64,000 nt of DNA, from positions 186,001 to 250,000 of the forward strand of contig CAMDBB010000002.1 of NCBI GenBank assembly GCA_945889195.1, written 5' to 3'. The DNA is from Bifidobacterium breve (GTDB lineage Bacteria > Actinomycetota > Actinomycetes > Nanopelagicales > Nanopelagicaceae). The notes beneath the pieces were generated by a model, which was not told the DNA's origin, ran no database searches, and was given only the letters and a program-made list of their open reading frames with translations. The position numbers and the translations under genes were made by a program. Positions 55,495 through 64,000 of this stretch are shown piece by piece; position 1 is the first letter of the stretch; the number at the start of each line of letters is the position of its first letter.

Positions 55495-56730
55495 ATGGAT
55501 ACCTTAACGAGAAGAAAATTCCTCAAATTAACCGCTGGCTCTGTGGCTGTTGGTGCAGCGGCTCCGTTATTAAATATCGCAGATATTGCAGAGGCTGCCA
55601 TTAGCCGTCCACTTCCTTCAGGGACACCGATTCTTGTGATGGTGACTTTATATGGTGGTAACGATGGTTTAAATACTGTAATTCCATTTAAGGATCCGAT
55701 TTATTACTCATCTCGTCCTGATATTTCATATAAAGAAGAGTTAGTCCTTCCGCTCGATGCAGAACTTGCCTTTAACCCTGCAATGAAGAGCATGAAGGTG
55801 TTATGGGATCAAAAGAAAGTTGCCATCATTCGCGGCGTTGGTTATCCAAATCCTGATCGTTCACATTTCTCATCGATGGCAAAGTGGCAGACTGCTTCCC
55901 CTGAAAAACACATCAACACAGGTTGGTTGGGTCGCTGGATTGATACACAACCATCGGATTCAATGCTCGCCATCTCTCTTGGTTCAGTGTTGCCGCCACT
56001 CTTTGCTGGTGGACGTCTTTCGGGGTCCGTTCTTCCACTGGGTGGATTAGTAATCCCACAAGGCTCTCTTGGAAGACAGTGTCAGCAATTAGCTAAACCA
56101 TCGCGTATGGATTCAAATCTGATGGCAGCAGCTGCAACATCTATGCGCAATCTCTTCTCAGTTTCAACAGAGGTTCAGCCAATACTTAAGGCGCCAGCGC
56201 CGGTTGCAGCAGATCTGCCAGTTGTTAATGGCGGAAATGCAGGGGGTGATAGCAATCTTTCACAGCAGCTCGACATTGTCGCCAAGTTAATTGCGGCAGG
56301 TGCACCAACGAAAGTTTGGTCAGTCTCCCTCGGTGGTTTTGATACCCACGCAAATGAAGCAAATGCGCAGTCGGCTCTTCTTGGGGTTGTCTCCGACTCA
56401 ATCGCGCGCTTTATGAGCCAACTTCGCTCTACTTCTCGTTCACAAGATGTGACTGTTGCGGTTTATAGCGAGTTTGGTCGTCGCGTTGTTGGAAATGGTT
56501 CTCAAGGAACTGACCATGGAACATCAGGGCCGATGTTTATTGTGGGCGAAAAAGTAAATGGTGGCTTCTATGGGGATCAACCATCACTGAAAAACCTCAT
56601 CTCTGGCGATTTAGCTGTAACGACAGATTTTAGAGATGTCTATGCCACGCTCTTGGAAAAGGTTTTGCGGTCCCCTGCTGAACAGACTCTTGGGCGGTGG
56701 GCCGGTCGAACTCAATTTATGAAGAGTTAA
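55495..56730 (+). CDS. DUF1501 family protein with Tat signal (sulfatase/phosphatase-like fold)
   Basis: A 411-aa protein. The N-terminus TLTRRKFLKLTAGSVAVGAA is a twin-arginine signal. The mature part has LYGGNDGLNTVIPF, YPNPDRSHFSSMAKWQTA, LGGFDTHANEANAQ and VYSEFGRRVVGNGSQGTDHG, which carry the metal-binding-type residues conserved in DUF1501 and related to the alkaline-phosphatase superfamily. The pair DUF1800-DUF1501 is widely conserved in order. Its function is unknown. The stop overlaps that of the convergent hspR by 3-4 nt. Confidence 0.88.
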   Translation: MDTLTRRKFLKLTAGSVAVGAAAPLLNIADIAEAAISRPLPSGTPILVMVTLYGGNDGLNTVIPFKDPIYYSSRPDISYKEELVLPLDAELAFNPAMKSMKVLWDQKKVAIIRGVGYPNPDRSHFSSMAKWQTASPEKHINTGWLGRWIDTQPSDSMLAISLGSVLPPLFAGGRLSGSVLPLGGLVIPQGSLGRQCQQLAKPSRMDSNLMAAAATSMRNLFSVSTEVQPILKAPAPVAADLPVVNGGNAGGDSNLSQQLDIVAKLIAAGAPTKVWSVSLGGFDTHANEANAQSALLGVVSDSIARFMSQLRSTSRSQDVTVAVYSEFGRRVVGNGSQGTDHGTSGPMFIVGEKVNGGFYGDQPSLKNLISGDLAVTTDFRDVYATLLEKVLRSPAEQTLGRWAGRTQFMKS

Positions 56731-57116
56731 TCCTCTTTATAAATAATTACATCGTTCTTTTTGCGAGACTTTAAACTCTTAGGTGGGTTCTCGGCAATCA
56801 GAGCATCTACCTCAATACGTAACTTGGCGACTTCGACTGCCATATTTGCCATTGCAGTCTCAAGTTCAATGATGCGCTTAATGCCTGCATGGTTGATGCC
56901 TTCGCCCACTAATCGTTGCACCATGCGAAGAGATGCAATGTCACGGAGTGAATATCTACGGTTGCGGCCTACTGTGCGATCGGGTGAGACTAAACCTAAA
57001 CGATCATACTGGCGCAGAGTTTGTGGATGTAGCCCAGAAAGTTCTGCAGCAACTGAAATTACATAAAGTCCAGCATCGTCATCTGGGTGATCTTCTTGGG
57101 GCAAGTCCTTTGTCAT
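56727..57116 (-). CDS. hspR: Heat-shock repressor, MerR family
   Basis: HspR binds HAIR elements and represses dnaK, using DnaK as co-repressor. The 129-aa protein has a MerR helix-turn-helix (VISVAAELSGLHPQTLRQYDRLGLVSP) and RNRRYSLRDIASLRMVQRL, plus a coiled C-terminus. It overlaps dnaJ by 4 nt and closes the operon. A HAIR-like site lies upstream of dnaK at 60486-60506, giving a feedback loop. Confidence 0.92.
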   Translation of the reverse strand: MTKDLPQEDHPDDDAGLYVISVAAELSGLHPQTLRQYDRLGLVSPDRTVGRNRRYSLRDIASLRMVQRLVGEGINHAGIKRIIELETAMANMAVEVAKLRIEVDALIAENPPKSLKSRKKNDVIIYKED

Positions 57117-58036
57117 GAGCGCGCCTTCGCTGCAAATTCAGCGCGAACATCTTCATTAGCTGTTGCTTGTGCAAAATTCTTAATTGCATCTAGCGCCTTA
57201 CCTTCTAGCGCGCGAGGTACTTGCACTTCGATAGTAATAAGTAAATCTCCAGTGACTGCGCCTTTTTTAATACCGCGACCTTTAACACGCAACACTCGAC
57301 CCGTTGGTGTTCCGGCAGCTAAGCGCACAGTGACATCATCTCCTGCAAGAGTTGGCACCTTTAAATCAGCGCCTAACGCTGCTTCTGCGAAGGTGACCGG
57401 CAGAGTTAAAAGTAAGTTCTCGCCTTTGCGTGAAAAGACTGCGTGTGGCTTTACATTAAGTTCGATAAAGAGGTCCCCTGGACCTGCTTCACCTGGCGCA
57501 CCTTTACCTTTGACGCGAATCTTGGCGCCATCATTGACGCCGGCAGGTACGCGAGCCGAGATTGTTTGTGATCCAGTGCCATCGACATTAAGTTTGAGAT
57601 CAAGTGTTGTGCCAAAGACAGATTCTTTAAAGGAGATGTTTGCTTCCGTTTGTAAATCGGAACCTTTGCGTGGGCCGCGTCTTCCGCCACCGCCAAAGAG
57701 GTTTGAAAAGATATCTTGCGGGTTACCGCCACCAAAGAGATCTGAGAAATCTCCGCCTTGGTAGTTGCCACCACCTGTTGGTGCACGGAATCCACCGCGT
57801 TCAAACATGGAGCGCGCTTCATCGTATTCAGCGCGTTTTTTGGAATCAGACAAGATGTCATATGCCTCAGAGACAGCTTTGAACTTCTCTTCGCGGGCAG
57901 CATCCCCTTGGTTCTTATCAGGGTGTAAATCGCGCGCTAAAGAGCGGTACTTCTTCTTAATTTCATCGGCGCTGGCTTTCTTGTCGATACCGAGAACTTT
58001 GTAGAAGTCCTTTTCATAAAGGTCTTTAGCGGCCAT
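57113..58036 (-). CDS. dnaJ: Chaperone DnaJ-like protein lacking the zinc-finger domain
   Basis: A co-chaperone that stimulates DnaK ATPase. The 307-aa protein has a J domain (DFYKVLGIDKKASADEIKKKYRSLAR, with HPD in ARDLHPDKN), a Gly/Phe-rich linker (about 80-125) and a C-terminal substrate-binding domain. No CxxCxGxG repeats are present between them, so it is a type B (CbpA-like) J protein. It is encoded between grpE (6 bp) and hspR (4-nt overlap), the usual place of actinobacterial dnaJ1. Confidence 0.9.
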   Translation of the reverse strand: MAAKDLYEKDFYKVLGIDKKASADEIKKKYRSLARDLHPDKNQGDAAREEKFKAVSEAYDILSDSKKRAEYDEARSMFERGGFRAPTGGGNYQGGDFSDLFGGGNPQDIFSNLFGGGGRRGPRKGSDLQTEANISFKESVFGTTLDLKLNVDGTGSQTISARVPAGVNDGAKIRVKGKGAPGEAGPGDLFIELNVKPHAVFSRKGENLLLTLPVTFAEAALGADLKVPTLAGDDVTVRLAAGTPTGRVLRVKGRGIKKGAVTGDLLITIEVQVPRALEGKALDAIKNFAQATANEDVRAEFAAKARS

Positions 58037-58042
58037 GTGTAA

Positions 58043-58555
58043 TTAGCCCTCTGCGCTTACTTCTTCGTGAGACTGCGGTTCGGTTACTGCAACGCGCGCA
58101 GGGCGCAAGATGCGTTCTTTATATTTGTAACCTGGCTGCAGAATCTTTGATGCAGTCGAGACTGCAACATCGCTTGAAGTGTCATGTAACAAGGCTTCGT
58201 GGATCTGTGGATCGAATGCATCGCCTGCTGTTCCATATTTTTCAAGACCGATGCGAGTGGTAATTGCAGCAAGCTGGTCTGCAACAGCCTTAAAGCCGCC
58301 AGTGAGCTCGTTATGTTCGCTGGCGCGATCGATATCGTCGAGGGTAGCCAATAACTCAGTTAAAACTGAGCCAATAGCAAGCTCGTGGGCTACTGCGCGA
58401 TCGCGTTCTACGCGCTTTCGGTAGTTGGCATATTCAGCTTGGAGTCGTTGTAGATCTGCAGTGAGCGCTGCAACCGGATCAGTCTCCTGAACCGGTGCAG
58501 CCTCTACTACTTCATCTACAGCTTCTGTAATTACCTCAGAAGTTTCGTTTGACAT
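58043..58555 (-). CDS. grpE: Nucleotide-exchange factor GrpE
   Basis: Promotes ADP release from DnaK. The 170-aa protein has an acidic N-terminus, a long coiled coil (LTADLQRLQAEYANYRKRVERDR), LLATLDDIDRASEH and a beta domain (EKYGTAGDAFDPQIHEALLHD). The ATG overlaps the dnaK stop codon by one base (TAATG). Standard length for the family. Confidence 0.93.
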   Translation of the reverse strand: MSNETSEVITEAVDEVVEAAPVQETDPVAALTADLQRLQAEYANYRKRVERDRAVAHELAIGSVLTELLATLDDIDRASEHNELTGGFKAVADQLAAITTRIGLEKYGTAGDAFDPQIHEALLHDTSSDVAVSTASKILQPGYKYKERILRPARVAVTEPQSHEEVSAEG

Positions 58556-60387
58556 TAATTTGAGCCTTCGTCAATTACCTCTGCGTCTTCGACGTGATCA
58601 TCCGAGTTGCTAGATGCACCTTCTGCTTGTGCTGATGCGTTTGCATACATCAAAGCGCCTAATGCTTGTGAGATAGTCGAAACCTTTTCAGTGTTTGACT
58701 TAATCGATTCGAAGTTTGCTCCACCAAGATCTGTCTTAAGTAGCGCTAGCGCTTCATCAAGTTCAGCCTTCTTGGTAGCAGCTTCACCTTCGGTGAACTT
58801 ATCTGCGTTATCGGTGAGGAACTTCTCTGTCTGATAGACGAGTGAATCACCAGTGTTACGGATTTCAGCTTCTTCACGACGCTGCTTATCTTCATTAGCG
58901 TGTGCTTCAGCGTCTGCCATCATTTGTGCGATTTCATCCTTAGAGAGCGCTGAACCACCAGTGATGGTCATGCCCTGCTCTTTACCGGTTGCAAGATCCT
59001 TTGCAGATACATGCACGATTCCGTTGGCATCGATATCGAATGTCACTTCAACCTGTGGAACTCCACGAGGCGCTGGTGCAATTCCAGTAAGTTCGAACAT
59101 GCCGAGCTTCTTGTTATATGCAGCCATCTCGCGCTCACCTTGGTAGGCCTGGATCTGCACAGCTGGTTGATTGTCATCAGCAGTTGTAAAGATCTCTGAA
59201 CGCTTTGTAGGAATTGTGGTGTTACGTTCGATGAGCTTTGTCATTACGCCACCCTTGGTTTCGATACCAAGTGAGAGTGGTGTGACGTCAAGGAGAAGAA
59301 CATCCTTCACTTCACCCTTAAGAACACCTGCTTGAAGAGATGCGCCAACGGCGACTACTTCATCAGGGTTTACGCCCTTATTTGGCTCTTTTCCGCCAGT
59401 GAGTTCACGGACTAAGTCCACAACTGCTGGCATACGAGTTGATCCACCAACAAGAACTACTGATTGGATATTTGCAATTGGAATTCCAGCATCTTTAAGA
59501 ACTGCTTGGAAAGGCTTCTTGCAGCGATCAAGTAGATCTGCTGTTAGCGACTGGAACTGTGCGCGGGTGATTGTTTCATCGAGGAACAATGGGTTCTTCT
59601 CTGAATCAACTGTGATGTATGGAAGGTTGATGGTTGCTGATTGTGAAGATGAGAGTTCAATCTTCGCCTTTTCAGCAGCCTCGCGGATACGCTGCATCGC
59701 CATCTTATCTTTTGTGAGATCGATACCGTTTGCAGATCCGAAAGTCTTTACTAGGTGGTCAACGAGTGCTTGATCCCAGTCATCTCCACCAAGGTTGTTA
59801 TCACCATTGGTTGCCTTTACTTCAACAACCCCGTCGCCGATTTCAAGGAGTGAAACGTCAAATGTTCCACCACCAAGGTCGAAGACAAGAATTGTCTGTT
59901 CTTGGTCAGCCTTGTCAAGACCATATGCAAGCGCTGCAGCAGTTGGCTCGTTGATAATACGAAGAACGTTGAGGCCAGCAATTTCGCCAGCTTCTTTAGT
60001 TGCTTGACGTTGTGCGTCATTAAAGTATGCAGGCACAGTAATAACTGCATCTGTCACGGTTTCGCCGAGATAACTTTCGGCATCGCGCTTTAACTTCTGC
60101 AACACACGTGCTGAAATTTCTTGTGCGGTGTACTTCTTACCGTCGATATCCATCGTCCAGTTAGTACCCATGTGACGTTTAACGGAACGGATTGTGCGTT
60201 CAACGTTTGTCACTGATTGACGTTTAGCAACTTCACCGACAAGAACTTCGCCGTTCTTTGCGAACGCGACGATCGATGGGGTTGTGCGAGCGCCTTCTGC
60301 ATTTGCAATAACCGTTGGTTCGCCACCTTCGAGTACTGAAACGCAGCTATTTGTTGTTCCGAGGTCGATTCCGACTGCTCTAGCCAT
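58555..60387 (-). CDS. dnaK: Chaperone DnaK (Hsp70)
   Basis: The 610-aa Hsp70 has [19 protein letters not shown] (phosphate 1), [38 protein letters not shown] (phosphate 2) and [16 protein letters not shown] (adenosine), followed by [17 protein letters not shown] and a substrate domain plus lid. The end ([13 protein letters not shown]) is the acidic tail. A SD (AAGGAG at 60395-60400) is 7 nt before the ATG. First gene of dnaK-grpE-dnaJ-hspR and under a HAIR-like operator. Confidence 0.97.
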
Positions 60388-60545: not shown

Positions 60546-60995
60546 TTACCCATATGTATCGCGGGGGCCTCGGCCGTTGGAGATTGAGCGCAGGCCTCGC
60601 TTCCAGGACGGAGCCTGGGGGCCGATGAAGTCGAGGGATTCAACCAAGGCGCCTGGGGCGCTGGAGCGGATCCGCTCAAGAAGTGAGGGTCCGACCAAGT
60701 TGAGCTGGGTCGCCCAGGCGGTGGAAGAACATTGCACAAGCAACCTGCCATCAAGGAGTGAGAGTGGTGTTGTGTGTTCTGCAATTTCAGGGCCGACTAC
60801 TTGAGGCCAGGTTGCAAAGAGAGTTCCTTCAGCAAGTCCTGAGTTCCAATCGCGTTGTGCAATTAAATCGTTAAGCACATTTGAAATAAGGGTTGGGTCG
60901 CCGGGCGTTTGGGTGCGCTCCTCAATCTTCTTTGCTTTCTTAATAAAGCCAGTCTTATAACTTTTAAAGAGATCGACAGCAAGGTCGCGCTTCAC
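60546..60995 (-). CDS. dciA: DUF721 protein, DciA-type helicase loader
   Basis: DciA loads the replicative helicase in bacteria without DnaC/DnaI. The 149-aa protein has the DUF721 core: LAEGTLFATWPQVVGPEIAEHT, PLSLLDGRLLVQCSSTAWATQL and LLERIRSSAP. The N-terminal basic extension (KSYKTGFIKKAKKIEERTQ) is typical of actinobacterial members. It overlaps recF by 4 nt (GTGA), in the classic dnaA-dnaN-recF-DUF721 order. The next gene in many actinobacteria, gyrB, is not here. Confidence 0.87.
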   Translation of the reverse strand: MKRDLAVDLFKSYKTGFIKKAKKIEERTQTPGDPTLISNVLNDLIAQRDWNSGLAEGTLFATWPQVVGPEIAEHTTPLSLLDGRLLVQCSSTAWATQLNLVGPSLLERIRSSAPGALVESLDFIGPQAPSWKRGLRSISNGRGPRDTYG

Positions 60996-62111: not shown

Positions 62112-63242
62112 TTACGAGGCGTAACGCATCGGCATCAACAGGTAGCGATAGTTCTCGATAGAAGGACCGTTTGGTTCGGTGCGTCCTGTGAGAATCGCTG
62201 GTTTGTTAGAGCCGGTAAATGAGATCTGCACAAATGGTGTGCCGACTGCTTGCAGACCATCCGCTAAGAAGGTTGGGTTAAAAGCAATTGAGATTGGTTC
62301 ACCGTTGAGTAGCACGTCGATAGTTTCAGTAGCTTGCGCCTCTTCGCCAGCGCCTGCTTCGAGAGAGACGCCACCATCTTTAAATTCAAGGCGTAGTGGA
62401 ACAGTCTTATCGGTAACAAGTGCCACGCGACGCACGGAATCTAAGAATGGAGCTACTTCAATGACAGCGATTGTTGCTGTTTCGGTGGGAAGTAAATGGC
62501 GGTATGGAGGGAAGGTTCCATCCAACATACGTGAAGTCATTGATTTACCCTCGCCGGAAAAGCCTGCCAGGCGATCGTGGGAAGTGGTGGGTGCAAATGA
62601 AAGTGAAACGTTCTTTGTGCCAACAAGTGATTTAGCTGCATCTGCAAGTGTGCGAGCGCGCATGAGCGCCGATGTTGAAAATCCTGGTGTTGCTGGGTTC
62701 CAGGTAAATTCACGGACTGCTAAACGGTAGCGATCTGTGGCCGCAAGTGTGATTGTCTCTTCATTAATTTCAACATGAACACCAGTAAGTGTTGGTAGTG
62801 AATCATCGCGGCCGGCCGCGATTGCAACCTGTGCAACAGCTGTTGCGAAGGTGTCGCTAGCAACCGAACCGGTTGTTTCAGGAAGTTCTGGAAGGTTTGG
62901 ATATTCAGAGAGTGAGAGTGTTGGAAGAGTAAATTTCGCAGAGCCTGATGTAACTAGGACTCGAGAACCATCGAGTGTGATGGTGATCGGTTTATTTGGA
63001 AGCGAGCGCGAAATTTCAGCGAGTAACTTTCCAGGAACTAGAACTGCACCTTTTTCGAGAATATCTGCTTTAAAAGAAGATTTGCTTGATGTCTCAAGAT
63101 CAGAACCACTAAGAAGTACTTCATCACCGGTTGCATCGATTTTGATTCCAAGGAGTTCGGTTTTTATTGGGCGTGATGAAAGTGAGCGCGAAACCCAATT
63201 CACTCCATCTGTAAGTGATTGTTGATCAACTGTAAATTTCAC
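62112..63242 (-). CDS. dnaN: DNA polymerase III beta sliding clamp
   Basis: The replication clamp. The 376-aa protein has three similar domains and standard elements such as LLSGSDLETSSKSSF, GKLLAEISRSLPNKP, PTLTGVHVEIN, ATDRYRLAVREF and the C-terminal NYRYLLMPMR peptide-binding region. The start is GTG at 63242, with GAGGG 7 nt upstream. It lies downstream of dnaA across the oriC-like gap, on the same strand, and is followed by recF. Confidence 0.96.
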   Translation of the reverse strand: MKFTVDQQSLTDGVNWVSRSLSSRPIKTELLGIKIDATGDEVLLSGSDLETSSKSSFKADILEKGAVLVPGKLLAEISRSLPNKPITITLDGSRVLVTSGSAKFTLPTLSLSEYPNLPELPETTGSVASDTFATAVAQVAIAAGRDDSLPTLTGVHVEINEETITLAATDRYRLAVREFTWNPATPGFSTSALMRARTLADAAKSLVGTKNVSLSFAPTTSHDRLAGFSGEGKSMTSRMLDGTFPPYRHLLPTETATIAVIEVAPFLDSVRRVALVTDKTVPLRLEFKDGGVSLEAGAGEEAQATETIDVLLNGEPISIAFNPTFLADGLQAVGTPFVQISFTGSNKPAILTGRTEPNGPSIENYRYLLMPMRYAS

Positions 63243-63593
63243 GCCGTAGCCCTCGCACTCATGTAGGTGTTTTGATGTAGTAGAACTGTAATTTGTGGAT
63301 GGTCCGCTTGGAAACGGGTTTTATATATATAAAGGTAGTAGTAGTAACTGGAGGTGAAAACTGTGGAAAGGTAAGGAAAGAGCAGGTCAGAACCTTTATT
63401 TAATTGCGCAAGGATGTGGGTAAGTGGGTAAAAGGTGTGGGTAGAGCTGTGCGCTAACTTCATCGTCCCTCTCCCTCTCTGATGTCTTAAATAATTACCC
63501 ACAGAAATCTTCGATCTATCCACAGTTATCCACAAGTTATCCCCACCTTGGGGGTAAAGAGGGTGAAAGCGGACAAATAAGCGTAAATCAGCC
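63243..63593. other. oriC: dnaA-dnaN intergenic region, probable oriC
   Basis: This 351-bp gap holds no gene. Plus-strand DnaA-box-like 9-mers are TTACCCACA (63495-63503), CTATCCACA (63516-63524), TTATCCACA (63526-63534, perfect) and TTATCCCCA (63537-63545); the last three start 10 and 11 bp apart. Reverse-oriented boxes are TGTGGGTAA (63415-63423), TGTGGGTAG (63436-63444), and weaker ones at 63362-63370 and 63294-63302. An AT-rich perfect palindrome TTTATATATATAAA (63320-63333) and a TAG-triplet run TAGTAGTAGTAA (63336-63347) follow. Position and content fit an actinobacterial origin. Confidence 0.85.
63320..63333. repeat. 14-bp AT palindrome in oriC (candidate unwinding element)
   Basis: TTTATATATATAAA at 63320-63333 is a perfect palindrome without G or C. 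It is directly followed by the TAG-triplet run and lies on the dnaN side of the DnaA-box cluster. Confidence 0.6.
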
Positions 63594-64000
63594 TTAACCC
63601 ACCTGCTGCTTAATACGGGTGGTGAGCTCATTAACCTGGTTATAGATCGAGCGGCGCTCTGCCATGAGTTCGCGGATCTTTCGGTCGGCATGCATCACGG
63701 TGGTGTGATCGCGGCCGCCAAATGTCTGACCGATTTTCGGCAATGAGAGTTCGGTTAACTCACGACATAGATACATCGCAATCTGTCGCGCATTAACAAG
63801 TGCGCGAGAACGAGATGTTCCACAAAGATCATCAATTGTCAGGCTGTAATAAGCAGCGGTTTGAGCCATGATTGTTGGAGCGGTGATTTCAGAGGTTGAT
63901 TCATTAGGAATCAAATCTTTTAATACGATTTCAGCAAGCCCCATGTCAACAACTTGGCGGTTAAGGGATGCGAAAGCAGTAACACGAATAAGCGCACCTT
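63594..64000 (-). CDS. dnaA: Chromosomal replication initiator DnaA (partial, N-terminus off the window)
   Basis: The visible C-terminal 135 residues include the end of the AAA+ domain ([14 protein letters not shown]) and all of DNA-binding domain [22 protein letters not shown] and the signature [14 protein letters not shown]. The frame continues through base 64000, upstream of the ATG at 63944, so the gene is cut by the window edge rather than short. It is transcribed towards the oriC-like gap and dnaN. Confidence 0.96.

Follow-up and report, generated by a model that had tools for sequence, protein, structure and literature searches.

The 351 bp gap between dnaA and dnaN at 63243-63593 of the window (the whole stretch of 64,000 nucleotides that was analysed) is very probably the chromosomal oriC, working in the manner of the Bacillus incC/BUS origins; we put the probability of this reading at roughly 0.87. 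Judged by its sequence, the origin is ordinary in kind, a BUS member with a weak second box. What its family adds, as far as comparison among relatives can tell, is natural evidence of unusual clarity on two mechanistic questions, together with one unexplained element. In this regard, the action of distal DnaA boxes and the reading of single-stranded DNA by DnaA are so far known mainly from engineered B. subtilis origins; the natural spacing by whole helical turns and the A/C switch at the third trio constitute evolutionary evidence for the phasing and capture model, and the family supplies ready-made natural variants with which phasing and the trio code could be tested.

Gene context and layout of the origin

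The gap is bounded by the start of dnaN at 63242 (gene 62112-63242, minus strand, from its open reading frame and a profile search) and by the stop of dnaA at 63594, also on the minus strand. The window holds the 3′ end of dnaA (63594-63998, minus strand, PF08299 match), the contig ending within the gene, past the window. The draft assembly is in fact split within dnaA, the two parts being carried by the end of contig G000:C2 and the start of G000:C15, which match overlapping parts of the DnaA profile (46-162 and 1-93, respectively). Beyond dnaN the gene order continues with a recF-like gene and, directly after it, a gene for DciA (60546-60995; PF05258, 83 bits), all on the minus strand. DciA acts on the replicative helicase. 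A row resembling dnaK-grpE-dnaJ-hspR, recognised by eye from the translations, also lies near the origin (56727-60387, minus strand).

Read from dnaA towards dnaN, the gap contains a distal cluster of four DnaA boxes, two intermediate boxes, the element TGACCTGC, a last box, 14 nt, a run of DnaA-trios, the bases CC and an AT palindrome. The distal boxes, found by box scan on the plus strand and with a spacing that is kept in the genus, occupy 63495-63503, 63516-63524, 63526-63534 and 63537-63545. Three of them, CTATCCACA at 63516, TTATCCACA at 63526 and TTATCCCCA at 63537, are those described in the sequence-only reading, and their starts do indeed lie 10 and 11 bp apart; the fourth, TTACCCACA at 63495, is 21 bp further out and was absent from that reader's list. 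All four point back to dnaA, whereas the intermediate boxes point forward. These latter, both on the minus strand, are CTACCCACA at 63436-63444 (2 mismatches), 74 bp or 7 turns before the last box, and a further TTACCCACA at 63415-63423, which at 53 bp or 5 turns holds the commonest intermediate position in the family; an extra weak box at 63423-63431, 61 bp from the last box, is out of phase. The element TGACCTGC (63382-63389, minus strand) is conserved across relatives and is followed by the last, trio-proximal box CTTTCCACA (63362-63370, minus strand, 2 mismatches) and by the 14-nt spacer (63348-63361, minus strand), the first 9 nt of which, GTTTTCACC, occupy the place of the second tandem box of other actinomycetes. 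The four trios, TAGTAGTAGTAA at 63336-63347 on the plus strand, give 5′-TAG TAG TAG TAA-3′ on the strand presumed to be bound and TTA CTA CTA CTA on the minus strand; under the BUS model the bound strand is the plus strand, with the box on the 3′ side of the trios. Two bases from the trio run is the 14-bp AT palindrome TTTATATATATAAA (63320-63333), placed as originally described and forming the least stable duplex: the least stable 20-mers within 62943-63893 start at 63318-63324, i.e. at the palindrome, which is likely to be the unwinding element. On its dnaN side a CGAACC/CGGACC-like block (63301-63309) is also conserved in the genus.

The gap thus has both the box cluster and the AT-rich element expected of an oriC of the dnaA-dnaN type. 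Its five DnaA boxes with at most one mismatch compare with a mean of 0.1 and a maximum of 2 among 2000 dinucleotide shuffles, and none of the 2000 shuffles gave any 14-bp AT palindrome. GC skew, taken from sampled 20-kb pieces with a resolution of only 67-120 kb, is a coarser guide. Of two complete relatives, G001 has dnaA at the contig start; as far as 623 kb, 8 of its 10 pieces have positive skew, and from 670 kb onwards 9 of 10 have negative skew. In G012, with dnaA at 255 kb, all 6 pieces between 380 and 1000 kb are positive, and all 3 between 1100 and 1360 kb, like the two at 1-140 kb, are negative; the two pieces flanking its dnaA carry the sign opposite to expectation. In both, the signal is weak, mostly below 0.05. 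For the draft genome that contains the window, the skew on the left side of the gap has the unexpected, positive sign (0.07), and the contig ends within dnaA, so the skew decides nothing here. On the skew check proposed with the original call of an oriC at this site, the two complete relatives fit an origin at dnaA, weakly and coarsely, and the window's genome is locally opposite. The call itself is upheld, with the dnaA/dnaN position, the boxes, their conservation and the skew of the two relatives in agreement, and it rests mainly on gene order, boxes and conservation.

From this layout we infer a course of binding, looping, opening and helicase loading. DnaA would bind the distal cluster and the intermediate boxes, whose phasing holds them to fixed faces of the helix, and would be delivered to the last box either by looping or within a complex on one face. 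A DnaA-ATP oligomer starting at that box would then grow along the plus strand, with two bases of each trio (a purine, then A or C) captured by a pair of protomers; this would open the AT palindrome and let the helicase be loaded, probably with DciA.

Spacing by whole helical turns

The comparison was made at three levels. Among 135 genomes of the genus, 94 had a DnaA match and 82 gave complete gaps (window included), all distinct. Adding 53 gaps from 15 other genera, which represent part of the family's genomes, brought the family set to 135. The scorer used to place the trios drew on trio content, and six of the 53 other-genus gaps scored 5 or less (L132, L152, L153, L156, L184 and L191), partly through misplacement; these were dropped from the tree and the phasing counts, leaving 129 of 135. 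At class level, loci with no dnaN in the stretch were excluded before the box rule was applied, and no gap is identical between the two samples taken. In the first, 54 of 64 gaps pass a boxes-only rule, 10 being dropped. The second, named sample (Streptomyces, Nocardioides, Arthrobacter, Nocardiopsis, Cellulomonas and others) comprised 80 loci and 73 gaps, from which 7 freshwater relatives were set aside; 62 of the remaining 66 pass a two-box rule, 4 being dropped, and many of these gaps are longer than the window's.

The cluster itself is well kept in the genus, the spacing 0/11/21/42 with at most two mismatches per box being found in 64 of 82 gaps, against 0 of 82 for six other sets of spacings; a strict sequence pattern for the phased triple boxes matches only 7 of the 82. 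In the other genera of the family all four boxes are found in 8 of 53 gaps and the first three in 32 of 53. Under the cluster rule the distance from cluster to last box could be measured in 105 of the 135 family gaps. It ranges from 133 to 208 bp and falls into groups at 133-134, 144-146, 154-156, 163-166, 174-177, 184-187, 195-197, 205 and 207-208 bp, with one gap at 200; the window's distance is 175 bp. The vector strength R at 10.5 bp is 0.83 for the 105 gaps, and 0.74 for the 27 distinct distances, a value reached by none of 20000 random sets. Control lengths give much less (trio to dnaN 0.31, dnaA to cluster 0.24, gap length 0.21), and pairing the cluster of one genome with the last box of another gives a mean of 0.08 and at most 0.25. 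A looser rule, with the single best box in each of 129 gaps, gives 0.79. Several of the entries labelled G in the spacing or trio tables represent descent from one change. Among 26 path-disjoint pairs taken from the tree, the distance differs by 1-2 bp in 13 and by 8-25 bp in the other 13, with no difference of 3-7 bp; the differences of at least 4 bp have R = 0.64 versus 0.23 for the trio-to-dnaN control. In other words, spacing in the family changes almost only by whole turns, as a loop or a one-face complex predicts.

In B. subtilis, according to PMC6669920, distal boxes are likewise needed and helically phased; there an engineered distal box revealed the phasing by half-turn shifts, the phasing being essential for about three turns and weaker beyond. 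A distal box remained functional at up to 462 bp. The family differs in that its cluster is 133-208 bp away yet phased. At these 13-20 turns the family data fit a loop and a continuous one-face array alike, and it is possible, if somewhat doubtful, that the phasing reflects the latter, i.e. an unbroken double-strand array with about one DnaA per turn, running from cluster to last box with no loop. Such an array would accord with the intermediate same-facing boxes, which themselves keep phase with the last box (R = 0.89 for 99 boxes of at most one mismatch across the 105 gaps) and sit chiefly at 53, 64-66 and 74 bp, and with the same-facing boxes at 20-120 bp in the class, which are phased in both samples (R = 0.79 and 0.88). 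It fits less well with the distal boxes, which point the opposite way, with recognisable boxes that leave turns empty, and with the 462-bp reach of the B. subtilis box. Boxes of the class lying 120-300 bp from the last box have R values at 10.5 bp of 0.11 and 0.67 when same-facing, and of 0.16 and 0.27 when opposite; since three of these four sets are unphased, long-range phasing is claimed for the window's family only.

The last box, the trios and the AT palindrome

The order of last box, spacer of 13-14 nt and four trios is present in 82 of 82 genus gaps, the spacer being 14 nt in 77 and 13 nt in 5. The suggestions that the TAG run resembles a DnaA-trio element, and that its triplets might be conserved and keep their phase to a DnaA box, are thereby borne out. 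On the minus strand the first trio is TTA in 73 and CTA in 9 of the genus gaps, the second CTA in 76 and TTA in 6, the third CGA in 41, CTA in 40 and CGG in 1, and the fourth CTA in all 82. Beyond the genus, 52 of the 53 gaps carry a trio-like run that a plain pattern picks up; in some family origins the trios number five or the register is shifted (e.g. L162 and L139), such that 'trio 3' is not always the same position.

In the published BUS rule a DnaA box with at most two mismatches lies 0-16 bp from the trios (PMC8287927); in the window this is CTTTCCACA, with 2 mismatches and a spacer of 14. Beside it stand four trios, where at least three of the form NAN are looked for, all with a central A. 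The DnaA residues that read single-stranded DNA are also in place, together with the arginine finger: the equivalents of E183, N187, I190 and I193 are identical in 87 of 87 genus loci, and those of K222, E228 and R264 are found in 86 of 87, the remaining one not being covered (locus counts include some repeats). N187 and E183, both of which contact A, are retained in all 84 class loci, with the same caveat on repeats. At the position of R202, the residue that contacts G in B. subtilis, all 87 genus loci have Q. This substitution, the two mismatches of the last box and the TTA of trio 1 are among the points against the BUS reading.

Compared by published description (PMC6669920, PMC8287927, PMC10721633), the B. 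subtilis origin has the same parts, namely a DnaA box, a short spacer and 3′-GAT-5′ trios between dnaA and dnaN. It differs in that the window's second tandem box is weak or gone, its trios number four versus six, and R202 is replaced by Q. The resemblance to a Bacillus-type trio that had first been remarked upon therefore stands, whereas the notion that the trio is special to Bacillus does not, since DnaA-trios are predicted in 1755 of 2070 origins (PMC8287927) and have been named, along with two box arrays, in the actinobacterium Kocuria rhizophila Noodlococcus (PMC12500396). That origin and the Streptomyces, Nocardioides, Arthrobacter and Nocardiopsis loci share with the window the same gap and the same core order. 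In the passing class gaps the layout is two tandem boxes, then 4 nt, then the trios; from the window's family the second box has largely disappeared, yet its 13-14 nt are retained. At the window's second site, GTTTTCACC, 2 of the 7 specified bases differ (4 of 9 versus the full box), just inside the published limit, and a second box with at most 2 of 7 mismatches is found in 8 of 82 genus gaps (window included) and in 8 of 47 scored gaps of the other genera.

The TATATA that follows the trios is nearly fixed in the genus (95-100% per base), and in 72 of 82 gaps the 20-mer of lowest duplex stability begins within the trio-to-AT region. A point against the proposed opening is that the site opened in vitro in M. 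tuberculosis was placed −500 to −518 from dnaN (PMC2607554). It is unlikely that the palindrome and the conserved bases near it are instead a dnaN promoter, conserved for transcription. They do lie about 80 nt before dnaN, and the TATATA keeps its phase more strictly than melting alone needs; nevertheless a scan of 63150-63700 gave no sigma-70-like pairs (0.8 expected by shuffling), and a promoter leaves both the fixed box-to-trio distance and the A/C rule unexplained. The same scan gave one terminator-like site at 63301-63320 (0.5 expected). A chance or coding origin of the TAG run, which is read as tyrosines in a 150-codon open frame spanning the gap and of which a three-fold CTA or TAG version appears in 15 and the exact 12-mer in none of 2000 dinucleotide shuffles, is ruled out by its presence in 82 of 82 genus gaps whose lengths vary from 307 to 438 bp and cover all three remainders modulo 3 (37, 18 and 27).

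Central bases of the trios and the element TGACCWGC

As described in PMC10721633, the bases captured in B. subtilis are 3′-GA-5′, and C can replace the central A where G or T cannot. The published BUS search required a central A, the same source itself suspecting deviant trios (PMC8287927). On the bound strand, the centre of trio 3 in the family is A in 66, C in 61, T in 2 and G in none of 129 gaps. A quick tree of dnaA/dnaN DNA calls for 11 changes at this position, 9 of them between A and C and two to T under one most parsimonious reconstruction. Within the genus the step from A to C is a single change, so that the 42 C-centred genus cases are not independent. Trio centres 1, 2 and 4 read T on the minus strand (a bound A) in all 82 genus gaps, and on the family tree trio 1 has no change of centre, trio 2 one (A/C) and trio 4 two (one to C, one to G). 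In so far as it can be read from these sequences, the A/C alternation at trio 3 agrees with the base-capture rule of B. subtilis (PMC10721633). Trio 1 is TTA, with A and not G, in 73 of 82 genus gaps, which counts against the reading of the gap as a BUS-type origin.

Over the class, 403 of 464 centres (116 cores, trios 1-4) are A or C, with 47 G and 14 T. As A/C/G/T the counts are 99/16/1/0 for trio 1, 63/45/6/2 for trio 2, 51/32/25/8 for trio 3, 53/44/15/4 for trio 4 and 29/52/35/0 for trio 5 (n = 116 cores). In the register used, 79 of 116 cores have only A or C at their first three centres (A throughout in 43, C throughout in 8); with the register shifted either way, none of the 116 does. 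In the first class sample C exceeds G at the centres by 69 to 28 (binomial p = 4e-5, a value that ignores relatedness), against a background elsewhere in the gaps in which Y-G-A and Y-C-A are about equal (1179 to 1117). Exceptions do occur, 8 Arthrobacter and Paenarthrobacter origins having G at the centre of trio 3.

The family further differs from B. subtilis in an extra TGACCWGC about 19 nt before the box. It stands at this distance from the last box in most of the families examined and is missing in Arthrobacter. Scored as TGANCWGS at −21 to −18 from the last box, with at least 6 of 7 specified bases, it is present in 78 of 82 gaps of the genus, 37 of 47 from the family's remaining genera and 37 of 54 from the class, against 7 of 574, 5 of 329 and 7 of 378 control windows, respectively; 30 of the 54 class gaps have its start at −19. 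In the named sample it occurs in 49 of 62 cores and was not found in the 8 Arthrobacter and Paenarthrobacter rows, nor in the Bifidobacterium row. A strict pattern of element plus box occurs in 64 of 295 class genomes, with 66 matches versus 1 for the reversed control. Of the 29 matches with a known place of dnaA (compared by hand), 19 lie within 3 kb of it and 10 elsewhere, from which it follows that the strict pattern is not confined to origins. A looser pattern occurs in 20 of 246 genomes of the phylum (control 0), 14 of the 20 outside the class; four of these 14 (L392-L394 and L400) had neither element nor trios.

TGACCWGC, which the window shares with the Streptomyces and Nocardioides loci, may be a component of actinobacterial origins that has so far been overlooked. 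No name for it was found in the literature on conserved origin motifs, and no report was found of turn-quantised spacing or central-C trios in natural origins, or of the element; this is weak evidence of absence, subscription papers and the supplements of PMC8287927 lying mostly outside the search. Similarly, no literature was found that links Nanopelagic* with oriC, and the accessible text on Kocuria rhizophila Noodlococcus (PMC12500396) has no mention of central-C trios, phasing or an upstream element. A bolder account, plausible enough to be set out tentatively though short of even odds, would combine, for actinobacterial origins, a turn-quantised DnaA complex on one face of the helix with TGACCWGC, two helical turns ahead of the last box, as a third unwinding part, bound by another factor or by an unrecognised mode of DnaA, and with a relaxed code 3′-[GA][AC]T-5′ under which some origins would open without any central adenine. 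The sequence that follows the element differs between groups, being GGGCTTTT-like in the window's genus and GGAAAC in many other actinomycetes.
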